DNA of 25,861 nucleotides, taken from IMG/VR virus record IMGVR_UViG_3300025889_000846, positions 1-25,861 of that record; one strand, written 5' to 3'. Position numbers and translations under genes: made by a program. Under the pieces are notes generated by a model that saw nothing but the letters and a program-made list of their open reading frames with translations, was not told the origin of the DNA and did not search any database. Below, in pieces: positions 10,292-25,861 of this stretch. Positions within the stretch are counted from its first letter, which is position 1; every line of letters begins with the position of its first letter. Source of the stretch: a virus.

Positions 10292-10632
10292 TCTTCATCT
10301 TTTGAATCTAACCAGCTTAACGGCTTGCGCTCCGTAATTTCTATCTCTTGCTTTTCTACGTAGCCTCTTCCCTTCCCTCGCGTCTTCATAAAGAACAGCG
10401 TAGCTTGCGGATTCTTCTCTTTAATAAGATGGAATAAAGCGCTCTCCGCGAAGTCTATCGCATATTCGTGTATATCGTTTACGGCTTGCGCGTATTCCTC
10501 GTCCTCCTTCATCCAGAGATAATGAGTAGCGCGGGAAATTCCCGCTACTTCCGCGGCTTTCGATACTATTCCTAGAGTACTCTTTAACGCTTCTAGCATA
10601 GCCGCTTTTAGTGTCGAATTTTGTTTATTCAT
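10288..10632 (-). CDS. terS: Terminase small subunit
   Basis: This is a 114-residue protein when started at ATG 10632, which overlaps the TGA of the ParB-like gene (ATGA); an upstream in-frame start at 10650 is less likely. Residues about 20-50 (LGIVSKAAEVAGISRATHYLWMKEDEEYAQAV) form a homeodomain-like helix-turn-helix of the phBC6A51 small-terminase type. They are followed by a helical region (AESALFHLIKEKNPQATLFFMKTRGKGRGY) typical of small terminases. It recognises the packaging site and stimulates the large subunit. The C-terminus (PLSWLDSKDEE) is acidic. Confidence 0.85.
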   Translation of the reverse strand: MNKQNSTLKAAMLEALKSTLGIVSKAAEVAGISRATHYLWMKEDEEYAQAVNDIHEYAIDFAESALFHLIKEKNPQATLFFMKTRGKGRGYVEKQEIEITERKPLSWLDSKDEE

Positions 10633-11060
10633 TTTCCGCAACATTCGCAAGTTTCGTTCTCTAGCTTTAACGGCTTATCCTCGTTTTCTTCCGGCTCTGG
10701 AAAGAAGAAAGGGATATTTAAGAACTCCAATATCTCCGGCTCGATCTCATTAGCTAGAATATCTATATCCCATTCTCCATAGTGCGAATTATCCAGAAGA
10801 GCGAAATACTCGTTATCCGCTTCGCTGTACTCGCTATAGATAACTGGAACTTCCTTTAATCCTATTTCTAGCGCGGCTCTGTAACGTTGATTCCCGGCGA
10901 TTATCGTTCCGTCTGGAGTAGCTTTAATAGGATTTAAGTTCAGGAGATGCGGCTTATCCTGAAGGCTCTTCTTGAGCTTCTGAAACTCCTTCTTACGAAT
11001 GTATCGAGGATTCTTCTCGTTCGTTTTTAGCTTCTGTATTTCTACTAGCTGGATACTCAT
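10629..11060 (-). CDS. ParB-N / sulfiredoxin-like domain protein
   Basis: This is a 143-residue protein with the ParB-like N-terminal domain: NPR at 17-19 and GNQRYRAA at 56-63, followed by E-I-G-L-K-EVPVIY. This is the nucleotide-binding core of ParB, sulfiredoxin and related phage proteins. No HTH DNA-binding domain follows, so it is not a full partition protein. The C-terminus is Glu/Pro-rich and ends in a Cys cluster (TCECCGK). It is coupled to terS (ATGA) and to the gene upstream (TAATG). Solo ParB-N proteins often sit beside terminases or DNA-modification genes in phages; the exact role is unknown. Confidence 0.75.
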   Translation of the reverse strand: MSIQLVEIQKLKTNEKNPRYIRKKEFQKLKKSLQDKPHLLNLNPIKATPDGTIIAGNQRYRAALEIGLKEVPVIYSEYSEADNEYFALLDNSHYGEWDIDILANEIEPEILEFLNIPFFFPEPEENEDKPLKLENETCECCGK

Positions 11061-14387: not shown

Positions 14388-15233
14388 TCATAATCCGCAA
14401 TATCCGTCCTCGCATTCGCCGAAATCGTCTAAATCTAATAGGCTTAATTGCGTCTTATGATTCTGAATCTTTCTATACGTTGTATCGCTTCTCCAAGTTC
14501 CGTTACCTTCGACTTCTTCTTGACGCGCAAACCAATCCATCTTTTCGGGGTGCTTTTGGAACATGAGATTTAGAAGAATGGGGTTGCGATGGAAGCAGCC
14601 CACGCAGTTGTTCCGTTCCGCAAATCGTACCGGCTTATCCTTCCAAAATTCGTATACCTTGTCGCGGTGTACGCCGTCCCGAATCATCGGAAAAACTGGC
14701 TGCTGCCATGGAACTTCGCCCCACTTATTGCGCCCGTCTTTCAGCTTCCCTACTACCGCCTTCATCTCGATGAATCCGTCTTCGTTGCACTTGTCGAGCA
14801 TCTTGTTGGCTCTGCGCTCTTCGCCCGCTCTAAAGCCAATTTGCGTTTGCACGGGTTCGCCTATGTTCTCCAGCCACCAGTCAAAAATGGGCTTTAACTT
14901 CATTTCGGTGGTGCAGTACCTGTGCAGCATATTTGGAAGCCAGCCACCTTTTTCATTTACCACGCGGTCAAAAGTTAAGCCCGCCACCCAATGAATCGGC
15001 CTGCCTAAATACTGCTCAAGTTCAAGAATCGTATAAACTATCGTATCCTCCTCCAGCGTACCGATAAACTCCCTTCCTATTTTGTCGCTAACGACTTGAC
15101 GAAGCTTCGCGTCTGGAAAGATGCAAGCCTTATCGCTCGTAGTTACTAGAGCGAAAACGTTATAATCGGTCGGATAATTTGCGGCGATATACGCACTACT
15201 TTTTCCGCCGGAGATGCTCGTAATAGTCTTCAT
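14388..15233 (-). CDS. PP-loop enzyme, PAPS-reductase-like
   Basis: This is a 281-residue protein with SGGKSSA at 8-14 (the PP-loop of the N-type ATP pyrophosphatase/PAPS reductase superfamily), HRYCTTEMKLKP at 104-115 and NCVGCFHR at 209-216, resembling the Cys motifs of the group. Proteins of this superfamily activate a substrate by adenylation and act in sulfate reduction, thiolation or nucleic-acid modification. In phages their substrate is mostly unknown. The C-terminus holds TQLSLLDLDD, a clamp-binding-like motif. Its ATG overlaps the TAG of the gene upstream. About 500 bp in the middle (14525-15030) have composition unlike the rest of the genome. Confidence 0.8.
   Translation of the reverse strand: MKTITSISGGKSSAYIAANYPTDYNVFALVTTSDKACIFPDAKLRQVVSDKIGREFIGTLEEDTIVYTILELEQYLGRPIHWVAGLTFDRVVNEKGGWLPNMLHRYCTTEMKLKPIFDWWLENIGEPVQTQIGFRAGEERRANKMLDKCNEDGFIEMKAVVGKLKDGRNKWGEVPWQQPVFPMIRDGVHRDKVYEFWKDKPVRFAERNNCVGCFHRNPILLNLMFQKHPEKMDWFARQEEVEGNGTWRSDTTYRKIQNHKTQLSLLDLDDFGECEDGYCGL
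14525..15030. other. Compositionally foreign block inside the PP-loop gene
   Basis: Words otherwise scarce in this genome (GGGG, TGGC, CCAC, GTGC, CAGCC) are dense here. The opposite strand happens to stay open for 143 and 102 codons (14563-14994, 14589-14897). Both gene ends return to the usual phage composition. This suggests replacement of residues about 68-236 by homologous recombination with a different lineage. Boundaries are by eye. Confidence 0.6.
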
Positions 15234-15928
15234 CGAGCTAAACGTTTCCGGTCTTTTTCTTGGAGCTCCGCGCGTTGCTCCTTCGTGAGATTCGACTTTT
15301 TGCCGGAAATCCAGTCCGCTATATTCCGCTCTCCGGCTTCCTCGATTTCGGCTACTTCGGATACGGCTCGCATAACGAGACGTTGCCGATCTTGAGCCTC
15401 TGCGCGCTGGATATTTTGCGCTCGTAGCGCCGCCGCTTCGCTCTTCTTCTCGTCGTACTTCTGGAACTCCTTTACGAACTCTCCCGCCTTGAGGCGTTCG
15501 TAGTGAGTACCGGCTTTAACAGCGTCCGTACATAGCTTAAAGTCTTCGAGCGTGAAGCTCGGAAACTTCTCTAAGAGCGTATCCGCTGTAAAGGCGTAGT
15601 CCTCCGGCGATTCGAGGCGCTTCTTTGCGTCTACGAAATCGCTCGCGTCGATGAGGAGCGAGAGGATAGCGGCTTTCGTCGTCGCTGGATTCATTCGGAG
15701 AGCCGCTCGTACGTTCGTTCCTTCGAACGCTTCGAGGACGCTAGCTCGATATTTTCCCGGTTGCGATATACTCCGCAAACTTGCGTCGATCTTCCTCGCT
15801 TCTTCCGGGTTTCGAGCTCCGGGATAGCTCTCTTTTAGCTTCTGAAGAGATAAAGATTCCCTTCCATCCGTTCGCGATGCTATTTCCGATAGCGTCGATC
15901 GCGATTCGTTCGTTTCCTTGTACATCAT
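15230..15928 (-). CDS. Replisome-associated protein, probable helicase-loader type
   Basis: This is an up to 232-residue protein. The core (MNPATTKAAILSLLIDASDF, KFPSFTLEDFKLCTDAVKAG, then THYERLKAGEFVKEFQKYDE) resembles the phage replication proteins that follow initiator genes in Bacteroidota phages (the LTLEDFKLC-x-x-A-x-x-G pattern). The remainder is a long charged helix. The start is uncertain: ATG 15928 overlaps the initiator gene by 188 nt, whereas ATG 15694 leaves 154 residues and a short gap. The arrangement initiator then loader parallels lambda O-P. Loader function is inferred; no Walker motif is seen. Confidence 0.6.
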   Translation of the reverse strand: MMYKETNESRSTLSEIASRTDGRESLSLQKLKESYPGARNPEEARKIDASLRSISQPGKYRASVLEAFEGTNVRAALRMNPATTKAAILSLLIDASDFVDAKKRLESPEDYAFTADTLLEKFPSFTLEDFKLCTDAVKAGTHYERLKAGEFVKEFQKYDEKKSEAAALRAQNIQRAEAQDRQRLVMRAVSEVAEIEEAGERNIADWISGKKSNLTKEQRAELQEKDRKRLAR

Positions 15929-16523
15929 TGTGCAGTTTATGGAGCGCGGCTTGCTCCGTTTTCATCGCCTTGAACGTAAATCTATGCTCTTTCCGCTTGT
16001 ACTCCTTCCACTCGCTCCAGATCGTCCGGAACTCTTCACTCTCGAAAGGAAGTACGAGCTCTTCTTTTTTTGGGGAGACTACTTCTCTACTTACTTCTCT
16101 CTTCTCTTCTCTATTATCCTTCTCTACTTGGTAGACGTTCGACGGGATACAGCCTTTACGTTCGACGGGATGCAGGGTATACGTTTGGCGGGATGCAGTA
16201 TCTACGTTCGACGGGATAGAAGTTAAACGGGAGGCTTTACGTTCGACGGGATGCTTAACGTTTGACGGGATAACGGCTTTAATTATCCGTTGCCGTCCGT
16301 TTATCATACTCCAGTCAATAAAGCCAGACTTCCGGAGATTCGTAATCGCGCAAGAAATCGACTTCTCCGTTACGTTCAGAAGCTCCGCGAGCTGTCCGTT
16401 CGTACGATACGCCTTCTTGCCTTGCGCCTCCCAAGTATAAGCGTCCGCCCAAATAGCAAGCTGGACGGCGGAGAGCCGACTAACGTACGGGAGGATCTCT
16501 AAAGGGAGTTGAAAGTAGTTCAT
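15741..16523 (-). CDS. Replication initiator, lambda-O-like, carrying iterons
   Basis: This is a 260-residue protein. Residues 1-90 form a winged-helix DNA-binding domain (PLEILPYVSRLSAVQLAIWA, TNGQLAELLNVTEKSISCAI, NLRKSGFIDW). Residues 83-129 are a low-complexity linker in which IPSNV and HPVERK recur; this is the translation of the DNA iterons in different frames. The C-terminal part (EEFRTIWSEWKEYKRKEHRF, ANGWKGIF) matches the helical C-terminus of phage initiators. Its ATG overlaps the TGA of the RHH gene, so initiator supply is tied to that repressor's operon. By analogy with lambda O, the protein would bind the repeats inside its own gene. Confidence 0.8.
   Translation of the reverse strand: MNYFQLPLEILPYVSRLSAVQLAIWADAYTWEAQGKKAYRTNGQLAELLNVTEKSISCAITNLRKSGFIDWSMINGRQRIIKAVIPSNVKHPVERKASRLTSIPSNVDTASRQTYTLHPVERKGCIPSNVYQVEKDNREEKREVSREVVSPKKEELVLPFESEEFRTIWSEWKEYKRKEHRFTFKAMKTEQAALHKLHNDVQGNERIAIDAIGNSIANGWKGIFISSEAKRELSRSSKPGRSEEDRRKFAEYIATGKISS
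16135..16275. repeat. Iteron array, probable origin of replication
   Basis: Six copies of an 18-bp element close to ACGTTCGACGGGATGCAG begin at 16135, 16158, 16181, 16204, 16239 and 16258 on the plus strand. A degenerate half copy (AACGGGAG) lies at 16226-16233. The first four are spaced exactly 23 bp, which is not a multiple of three, so the repeat is conserved as DNA rather than as protein. Position within the initiator gene is the lambda ori arrangement. The pyrimidine-rich stretch 16081-16130 beside it could be the melting region. Confidence 0.85.
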
Positions 16524-16663
16524 CCTTCCAGTCCTTTCTGGATAAGTTCATACGCTATGCGCGAAGGCGCTTTCTTGCTAACCTTTCCCGCAAATTTCAG
16601 GCGCTCGAACTCTTCGCGAGTTAACCGAATGCCAATTAACTCCGTTCTTTTTGGCTCTTTCAT
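16520..16663 (-). CDS. Ribbon-helix-helix (Arc/CopG-like) DNA-binding protein
   Basis: A 47-residue protein, ATG 16663 to a TGA overlapping the initiator ATG. The strand RTELIGIRLT, then helix REEFERLKFAG, then helix APSRIAYELIQKGLEG is a canonical RHH fold. Such dimers bind palindromic operators. The gene lies directly behind a perfect 21-bp palindrome (16689-16709), and two further half-sites lie in its own coding sequence (16617-16624, 16636-16644). It is probably an autorepressor that also controls the downstream initiator gene. It has almost no 5' leader. Confidence 0.75.
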   Translation of the reverse strand: MKEPKRTELIGIRLTREEFERLKFAGKVSKKAPSRIAYELIQKGLEG

Positions 16664-16688: not shown

Positions 16689-16709
16689 TTAACTCCGATT
16701 CGGAGTTAA
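16689..16709. promoter_or_regulatory. 21-bp perfect palindrome, probable operator of the RHH protein
   Basis: Two 10-bp arms (TTAACTCCGA and its complement) flank a single central T. It covers the region roughly 25-45 bases upstream of the predicted start, where a bound repressor would block polymerase. The arm TTAACTCCG recurs exactly at 16636-16644, and a shorter inverted half (CGAGTTAA) lies at 16617-16624 in the RHH gene. Confidence 0.7.
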
Positions 16710-25516: not shown

Positions 25517-25861
25517 TTAAAAAGATAGTAAAGCTTGTTCGCGGAGTTTTTGATTCGCTTGTAAGCCGTTAGATACATCGTTAGAAAGAACGTAACTACG
25601 GAATCCCTCTTGCGGAGCGGATGGAATTTGCGGCGCTTGCGCTTGCGTTCTATTCTGATTCTGAAGAGCTACAGAAGGAAGAGAAGGAGCGGAAGGAGCG
25701 CTAGCGCCTCCCTCGAATTTCTCTCTAGATATTATAGCTATTTGCGCCGCTCCAGCTACAGCCGCCGCCGCCGCGGAAGCATAACGCGAGAAAGGAGCTA
25801 CGCTATCTTTTGCGAGAGCGTCTACTATCGCTTGAGCCGTTCCGATTACAGCCGTAGAGAT
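25517..25861 (-). CDS. Tail tape measure protein (C-terminal residues 459-572)
   Basis: This is the C-terminal part of the same gene, in frame with the left-end piece once the 139-bp repeat is merged. It repeats residues 459-504 and adds a 68-residue tail rich in Ser, Ala, Pro and Gln (around GGASAPSAPSLPS and QAQAPQIPSAPQ), ending in REQALLSF. The TAA is two bases upstream of the protease ATG (25515), consistent with coupled translation. Residue 501 is Ile here and Val in the left copy. Confidence 0.85.
   Translation of the reverse strand: MSTAVIGTAQAIVDALAKDSVAPFSRYASAAAAAVAGAAQIAIISREKFEGGASAPSAPSLPSVALQNQNRTQAQAPQIPSAPQEGFRSYVLSNDVSNGLQANQKLREQALLSF
25723..25861. repeat. Right copy of 139-bp terminal direct repeat
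   Basis: This matches bases 1-139 except T at 25735 against C at 13. On the minus strand the difference changes tape-measure codon 501 from GTA (Val) to ATA (Ile), a conservative change, so it may be a real population variant rather than an error. Confidence 0.95.

Follow-up and report, generated by a model that had tools for sequence, protein, structure and literature searches.

Initiator gene and source genome

The window, i.e., the whole 25,861-nucleotide stretch analyzed (IMGVR_UViG_3300025889_000846), carries a gene for an O-like replication initiator, the middle of which contains an array of short repeats (iterons) adjoined by an AT-rich tract (Table 1). Nearly all of the plausible genes of the window are on the minus strand, and terminase, portal, and endolysin genes were recognizable. 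Because the ends of the window (positions 1 to 139 and 25723 to 25861) share 139 bp with one mismatch and two near-identical contigs span the end-to-end join, it constitutes an effectively complete circular genome of about 25.7 kb. The closest isolated relatives included Bacteroides and Flavobacterium phages in a terminase comparison and Nonlabens phages P12024S and P12024L in a portal comparison; on the basis of these isolates, the host is likely a member of the Bacteroidota. GC skew showed no inflection over the window and was uninformative regarding the position of an origin.

Table 1. Positions of the initiator gene, its domains, the iterons, and the AT-rich tract in the window
Feature	Position	Strand	Basis or remark
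O-like replication initiator gene, 260 aa	15741..16523	-	phrog_678 match; family of 27 full-length homologs
N-terminal winged-helix DNA-binding domain, aa 1-84	16272..16523	-	AlphaFold2 and structural matches
Iteron 1	16258..16271	-	ATCCCGTCAAACGT, phase 0
Iteron 2	16239..16252	-	ATCCCGTCGAACGT, phase 1
Iteron 3, decayed	16220..16233	-	CTCCCGTTTAACTT, 10/14 matches; spacing of 19 bp to iteron 2 and 16 bp to iteron 4
Iteron 4	16204..16217	-	ATCCCGTCGAACGT, phase 0
Iteron 5	16181..16194	-	ATCCCGCCAAACGT, phase 2
Iteron 6	16158..16171	-	ATCCCGTCGAACGT, phase 1
Iteron 7	16135..16148	-	ATCCCGTCGAACGT, phase 0; adjoins AT-rich tract
Predicted disordered linker, aa 90-148	16080..16256	-	Coding sequence spans most of the array plus the AT-rich tract
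AT- and purine-rich tract (candidate unwinding element)	16074..16133	-	77% purine on coding strand over 60 bp
C-terminal helical domain, type I, aa 163-218	15870..16037	-	pLDDT mostly 90 or more

The profile of phrog_678 ("replication initiation O-like") matched residues 2 to 240 of the initiator (E = 6.9e-11), i.e., most of the protein, and matches to other replication initiator PHROGs and to DnaD-like helicase loader PHROGs were also detected. In Pfam, the protein scored below the curated cutoffs for Phage_rep_O (PF04492; 16.6 bits, cutoff of 28.7) and HTH_36 (PF13730; 15.0 bits, cutoff of 25), the latter of which matched the best homolog with an E value of 3.2e-10. Neither the Pfam matches of the protein nor those shown for its homologs included the RepA_N domain (PF06970). 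The AlphaFold2 model consisted of two ordered domains, with a winged helix-turn-helix (wHTH) at residues 8 to 83 (pLDDT mostly about 75 to 93), separated by residues with a pLDDT of <50 (90 to 92 and 94 to 148). Structural neighbors of the wHTH included MarR, LexA, DnaD-N, and the initiator N-terminal domain entries 4pql and 4pt7, with middling Z values that indicate a shared fold only.

The C-terminal domain is presumed to recruit the replisome. Searches with PHROGs recognized neither a P-like helicase loader nor any other partner in the window, and the downstream open reading frame (ORF) at 15230 to 15928 has no known function. By analogy with the pSK41 Rep protein, the C-terminal domain of which acts directly on DnaG (PMC5703833), the C-terminal domain encoded in the window, with no recognized P-like loader, may act directly on host proteins.

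Iteron array and AT-rich tract

Exact copies of the core ACGTTYGRCGGGAT start at positions 16135, 16158, 16181, 16204, 16239, and 16258, with spacings in coordinate order of 23, 23, 23, 35, and 19 bp, and no further core was found in the whole window at up to two mismatches. A decayed seventh copy occupies the 35-bp gap; with this copy included, the spacings are 19, 19, 16, 23, 23, and 23 bp along the gene. The first-pass annotation had described six 18-bp repeats, four of them at exactly 23-bp spacing, that are read in shifting frames. The number of copies and the 23-bp spacing (the four cores from 16135 to 16204) were reproduced; the length of 18 bp was slightly generous, with an invariant core of 14 bp and near-identity reaching up to 17 to 18 bp. 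The shifting frames were likewise recovered, since the coding-strand phases of the six cores (0, 1, 0, 2, 1, and 0) use all three codon phases and the repeats are read as IPSNV (three copies, phase 0), HPVER (two copies, phase 1), and ASRQTY (one copy, phase 2).

The array is not due to chance, because neither synonymous recodings nor base shuffles reproduced six copies. When the same peptide was recoded with the codon usage of the genome itself, six copies were obtained in 0 of 1,000 and five copies in 1 of 1,000 sequences, and base shuffles never gave more than two. Among the repeat arrays of the 25.9-kb window, it also ranks first by a wide margin, with a score of 22 versus 12 for the next-best array, a repeat inside an acidic, alanine-rich gene. 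Dyad symmetry of the iterons was not significant (3.33 of 6 arm positions versus a null value of 3.24), and they may be bound by a monomer or by an asymmetric dimer. No contig with two adjacent copies of this iteron was found among the viral contigs searched, which fits a rapid turnover of iterons.

Within the gene, AT content is highest (68% over 40 bp) at 16078 to 16117, starting 16 bp after the array. An AT content of 68% at best counts against the origin interpretation presented below.

A 99.9% identical contig (IMGVR_UViG_3300006916_001594) ends at window position 16305, 32 bp before the array, which may reflect an assembly break at the repeats or population variation.

Arrays conserved in place and diverged in sequence

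Searches with the terminase and the portal led to a set of 27 full-length family members including the window (about 23 distinct). An array, defined by at least two spacings of 16, 21, 22, or 23 bp, was present in 26 of the 27 homologous initiator genes and in none of 121 further genes of comparable size from the same loci, and it was located between the same two domains (wHTH and C-terminal) as in the window. The spacings in the family are 16 or 21 to 23 bp, mostly 21, 22, and 16 bp, with copies in all three phases. In the one exception (L072), the scan missed the array, and the motif of its sister L068 finds copies at 42 and 22 bp; the arrays of three further members (L132, L172, and L067) were barely above the synonymous null. 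In 17 of 22 genes, including that of the window, the most AT-rich 40 bp begin -10 to +30 bp from the end of the array. In two genes (L151:11745-12479 and L054:913-1650), the AT-rich tract after the array consists of 12-bp repeats that stay in frame (four TKQx and three TIEH units), unlike the frame-shifting iterons.

The repeat sequences themselves can be grouped into at least eight classes: TTGCGC-N6-GCGCAA; GTTCA-N4-TGAAC; GTTCC-N4-GGAAC; a GTTGTA variant; GCAAC-N4-GTTGC; TGGGGA..TCCCCA; TTTCGGGCAGnCCGAAA; AAAGGnCAAAAnGTCC; and ATCCCGTCGAACGTA of the window. Most classes have conserved palindromic arms and variable centers, and dyad symmetry was significant for the iterons of most relatives, as it was for those of lambda. 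The class C arrays (L059, L052, and L060) contain two kinds of sites, i.e., distal copies at 16-bp spacing with mixed arms (GCAAC...GGAAC) and proximal copies at 21- to 22-bp spacing that are symmetric (GCAAC...GTTGC).

The comparison of related phages, which the first-pass annotation had suggested, thus revealed that the arrays have kept their position, their spacing, and an AT-rich stretch next to them and that the repeat sequence and the linker protein have diverged. This pattern supports the first-pass proposals that the repeats are conserved for DNA rather than for protein and that they form a putative in-gene iteron origin like that of lambda.

With tblastn, the whole initiator had no match in isolated phages, and its N-terminal part had only weak matches, the best of which was a Staphylococcus DnaD-like gene; one of the weakly matching genes (E72) had no array. 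A scan of bacterial genome contigs revealed no relative, and phmmer recognized no initiator homolog in relatives identified through the downstream PAPS-reductase-like gene.

Apparent exchange of the winged helix together with the array

The homologs carry one of two unrelated C-terminal domains. The second (..DYYEANGWTQGRNKPIKDWKAAARGW..) replaces type I in seven members (L109, L052, L059, L060, L061, L064, and L072) and was modeled as helical after a disordered linker; together with the model for the window, this makes two AlphaFold models in which the linker is disordered. Both C-terminal domains occurred with each of iteron classes C, D, E, and F; in these seven pairs, the wHTHs were 67 to 84% identical and the C-terminal domains 14 to 27% identical. 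The initiator of the window itself is, by sequence comparison, a mosaic: its wHTH is only 16 to 27% identical to those of the homologs derived from the terminase and portal searches, whereas its C-terminal domain is mostly 40 to 59% identical to those of type I relatives (31% for L068), and the terminases of several of the same relatives are about 65 to 77% identical. Because four iteron classes pair with two unrelated C-terminal domains and the window is mosaic, the wHTH and the array appear to be passed between phages as a single cassette that does not include the C-terminal domain.

In a comparison of 23 members, similarity of the iterons tracked that of the wHTH (partial rho of 0.58; permutation P = 0.0005) but not that of the C-terminal domain (partial rho of -0.09, P = 0.83). 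This covariation supports joint movement and falls short of proving contact between wHTH and iterons, because shared ancestry and close linkage contribute; the two are adjacent, and linkage alone accounts for part of their shared history. A search with the wHTH of the window alone revealed one further phage (L205; 61% identical in the wHTH), in which joint inheritance predicts related iterons. Its gene contains seven, with spacings of 16, 16, 16, 23, 23, and 23 bp. They share ATCC....(G)AACGT with those of the window, and at four adjacent positions nearly all of the L205 copies have ACAT instead of the CGTC of the window. An intact copy is located 16 bp before the 23-bp set of L205, i.e., in the place of the decayed iteron 3 of the window. 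The first-pass view of origin and initiator as a single movable unit is supported for the wHTH with the array and not for the whole initiator, of which the C-terminal domain is exchanged independently.

Comparison with known in-gene origins

In lambda, O dimers, which bind DNA through the amino-terminal half of the protein (PMC4488673), occupy the iterons, after which the adjoining AT-rich region opens (PMC5043065; see also PMC7466680). When lambda O was included as a control in our scan, its four annotated iterons were returned in the middle of the gene (spacings of 20, 24, and 23 bp), as the first-pass annotation had stated, and the AT-rich maximum was placed 5 bp downstream of them; the scan of lambda P gave nothing. 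In both lambda and the window, iterons and an adjoining AT-rich tract lie in the middle of the gene, between the parts encoding DNA-binding and C-terminal domains, and the spacings (23, 23, and 23 bp in the window) are out of codon phase. The window differs from lambda in having iterons without significant dyad symmetry, six or seven copies instead of four, a protein below the Phage_rep_O cutoff, and no recognizable P gene. Similarity between the two iterons is at the chance level (7 to 10 of 18 positions), and we do not claim common descent of the repeats.

The origins of the lambdoid phages P27 and 933W have six iterons, of which the four proximal ones are bound well and the distal ones weakly, the extra ones still being needed (PMC7466680). 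The window likewise has extra iterons distal to the AT-rich tract, and its proximal set at 21 to 23 bp and distal set at 16 to 19 bp are comparable to the proximal and distal iterons of these phages; P27 and 933W differ from it in iteron sequence and protein family.

In RepA_N plasmid initiators, such as that of pSK41, the origin boxes occupy the center of the rep gene, where they code for a dispensable linker that joins a winged-helix N-terminal domain to a C-terminal domain (PMC5703833). In the window, the putative origin likewise lies in the part of the gene that encodes the linker between these two domains. The pPR9 initiator is a chimera in which a block of about 500 bp (N-terminal domain plus origin) was replaced and the C-terminal domain was kept (PMC5703833). 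This swap is of the same kind as that of wHTH plus array in the phage family, and the family of the pPR9 N-terminal domain (pfam13730) was matched by all 23 phage members (E values of up to 0.1). The principle of an in-gene origin, known from lambda and RepA_N plasmids, is not new, and a natural exchange of an N-terminal domain together with its origin is on record for pPR9 (PMC5703833). RepA_N systems are those of Firmicutes plasmids, whereas the present cases are phages with nearest isolates that infect Bacteroidota, and the swap recurs across several iteron classes. A search of an open-access subset of the literature found no report of this phage family.

The winged-helix N-terminal domain of the initiator is also structurally similar to DnaD-N of the primosomal proteins, and DnaD-like helicase loader PHROGs were matched. 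DnaD, by contrast, is not known to initiate replication at specific sites formed by iterons of its own gene.

Proposed origin and alternative explanations

As a whole, these observations are best explained by a phage replication origin resembling ori-lambda, composed of the array and the AT-rich tract and located inside the linker-coding part of the initiator gene, an explanation that we consider very probable. Besides the modest AT content, points against it are the lack of significant dyad symmetry in the iterons of the window, the Phage_rep_O score below the cutoff, the absence of a recognizable helicase loader or other partner in the window, and the family members in which the array is barely above the synonymous null (L132, L172, and L067) or was missed by the scan (L072). 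We infer from sequence comparison that the window holds a lambda-type in-gene origin to which its own initiator would bind. The N-terminal winged helix would bind the iterons; with copies about two helical turns apart, the bound protein would line up and, as in lambda, strain the adjoining AT-rich tract until it opens, and the C-terminal domain would then recruit the host replisome. The array could diverge because the encoded linker needs no defined fold; by sequence comparison, wHTH and array co-diverge and appear to be exchanged together.

Alternatively, the repeats could be operator sites through which the initiator or another phage regulator controls transcription of the operon, with replication starting elsewhere. 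Most iteron classes are operator-like palindromes, the initiator gene is in an operon, and another palindrome (16689 to 16709) lies upstream of the neighboring small gene. The sites are, however, 250 to 390 bp into the coding region rather than at a promoter, they number up to seven phased copies, and together with the adjoining AT-rich tract they show an origin-like anatomy that matches the lambda origin. We consider this explanation improbable; the repeats may have a dual role as operator and origin.

An expansion of coding or minisatellite sequence in the disordered linker, with no function in cis, is a highly improbable explanation of the repeats. Such a linker tolerates repeats, and slippage or gene conversion that homogenizes copies could mimic concerted change, but the different phases keep no peptide repeat, phasing at 16 or 21 to 23 bp is found in 26 of 27 homologs and in none of 121 control genes, most classes combine conserved palindromic arms with variable centers, and the iteron class follows the wHTH. 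Binding of the repeats by a host factor is extremely improbable, given that at least eight repeat sequences in related phages change with the wHTH of the phage itself and not with the rest of the protein. What speaks for a host factor is that AT-rich tracts adjoining repeats also occur in DnaA-dependent origins.

Building on the lambda-type origin, a broader proposal is possible but rather doubtful: in these uncultured phages, probably of Bacteroidota, the wHTH and in-gene origin might form an exchangeable specificity cassette, with iterons of at least eight types and two C-terminal domains that can replace one another; phages that co-infect a cell might gain from new iterons by escaping incompatibility or competition between their origins, which would drive the turnover, and the class of the window might have left palindromic for directional repeats and hence have an initiator stoichiometry unlike that of lambda. 

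The family adds related initiators that form a natural series, with at least eight different iteron sequences cognate to them. Such a series could reveal how DNA is chosen by these winged helices and could serve to test the exchange of origin and DNA-binding domain as one cassette. The family also provides a base-precise origin prediction in phages that have never been cultured.

Neighboring genes

A gene for a ParB-like nuclease domain is located at 10629 to 11060 (minus strand), adjoining that for the terminase small subunit. The minus-strand ORF downstream of the initiator gene, which has distant homologs in related phages, would overlap it by 188 bp if its first ATG were used; a later start is likely. 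On the other side, an ORF of 47 amino acids (MKEPKRTELIGIRLTREEF...; 16520 to 16663, minus strand) shares the bases ATGA with the start of the initiator gene and resembles, by eye, a ribbon-helix-helix protein. The palindrome just upstream of this ORF has perfect 10-bp arms (TTAACTCCGA-T-TCGGAGTTAA) and could be its operator.
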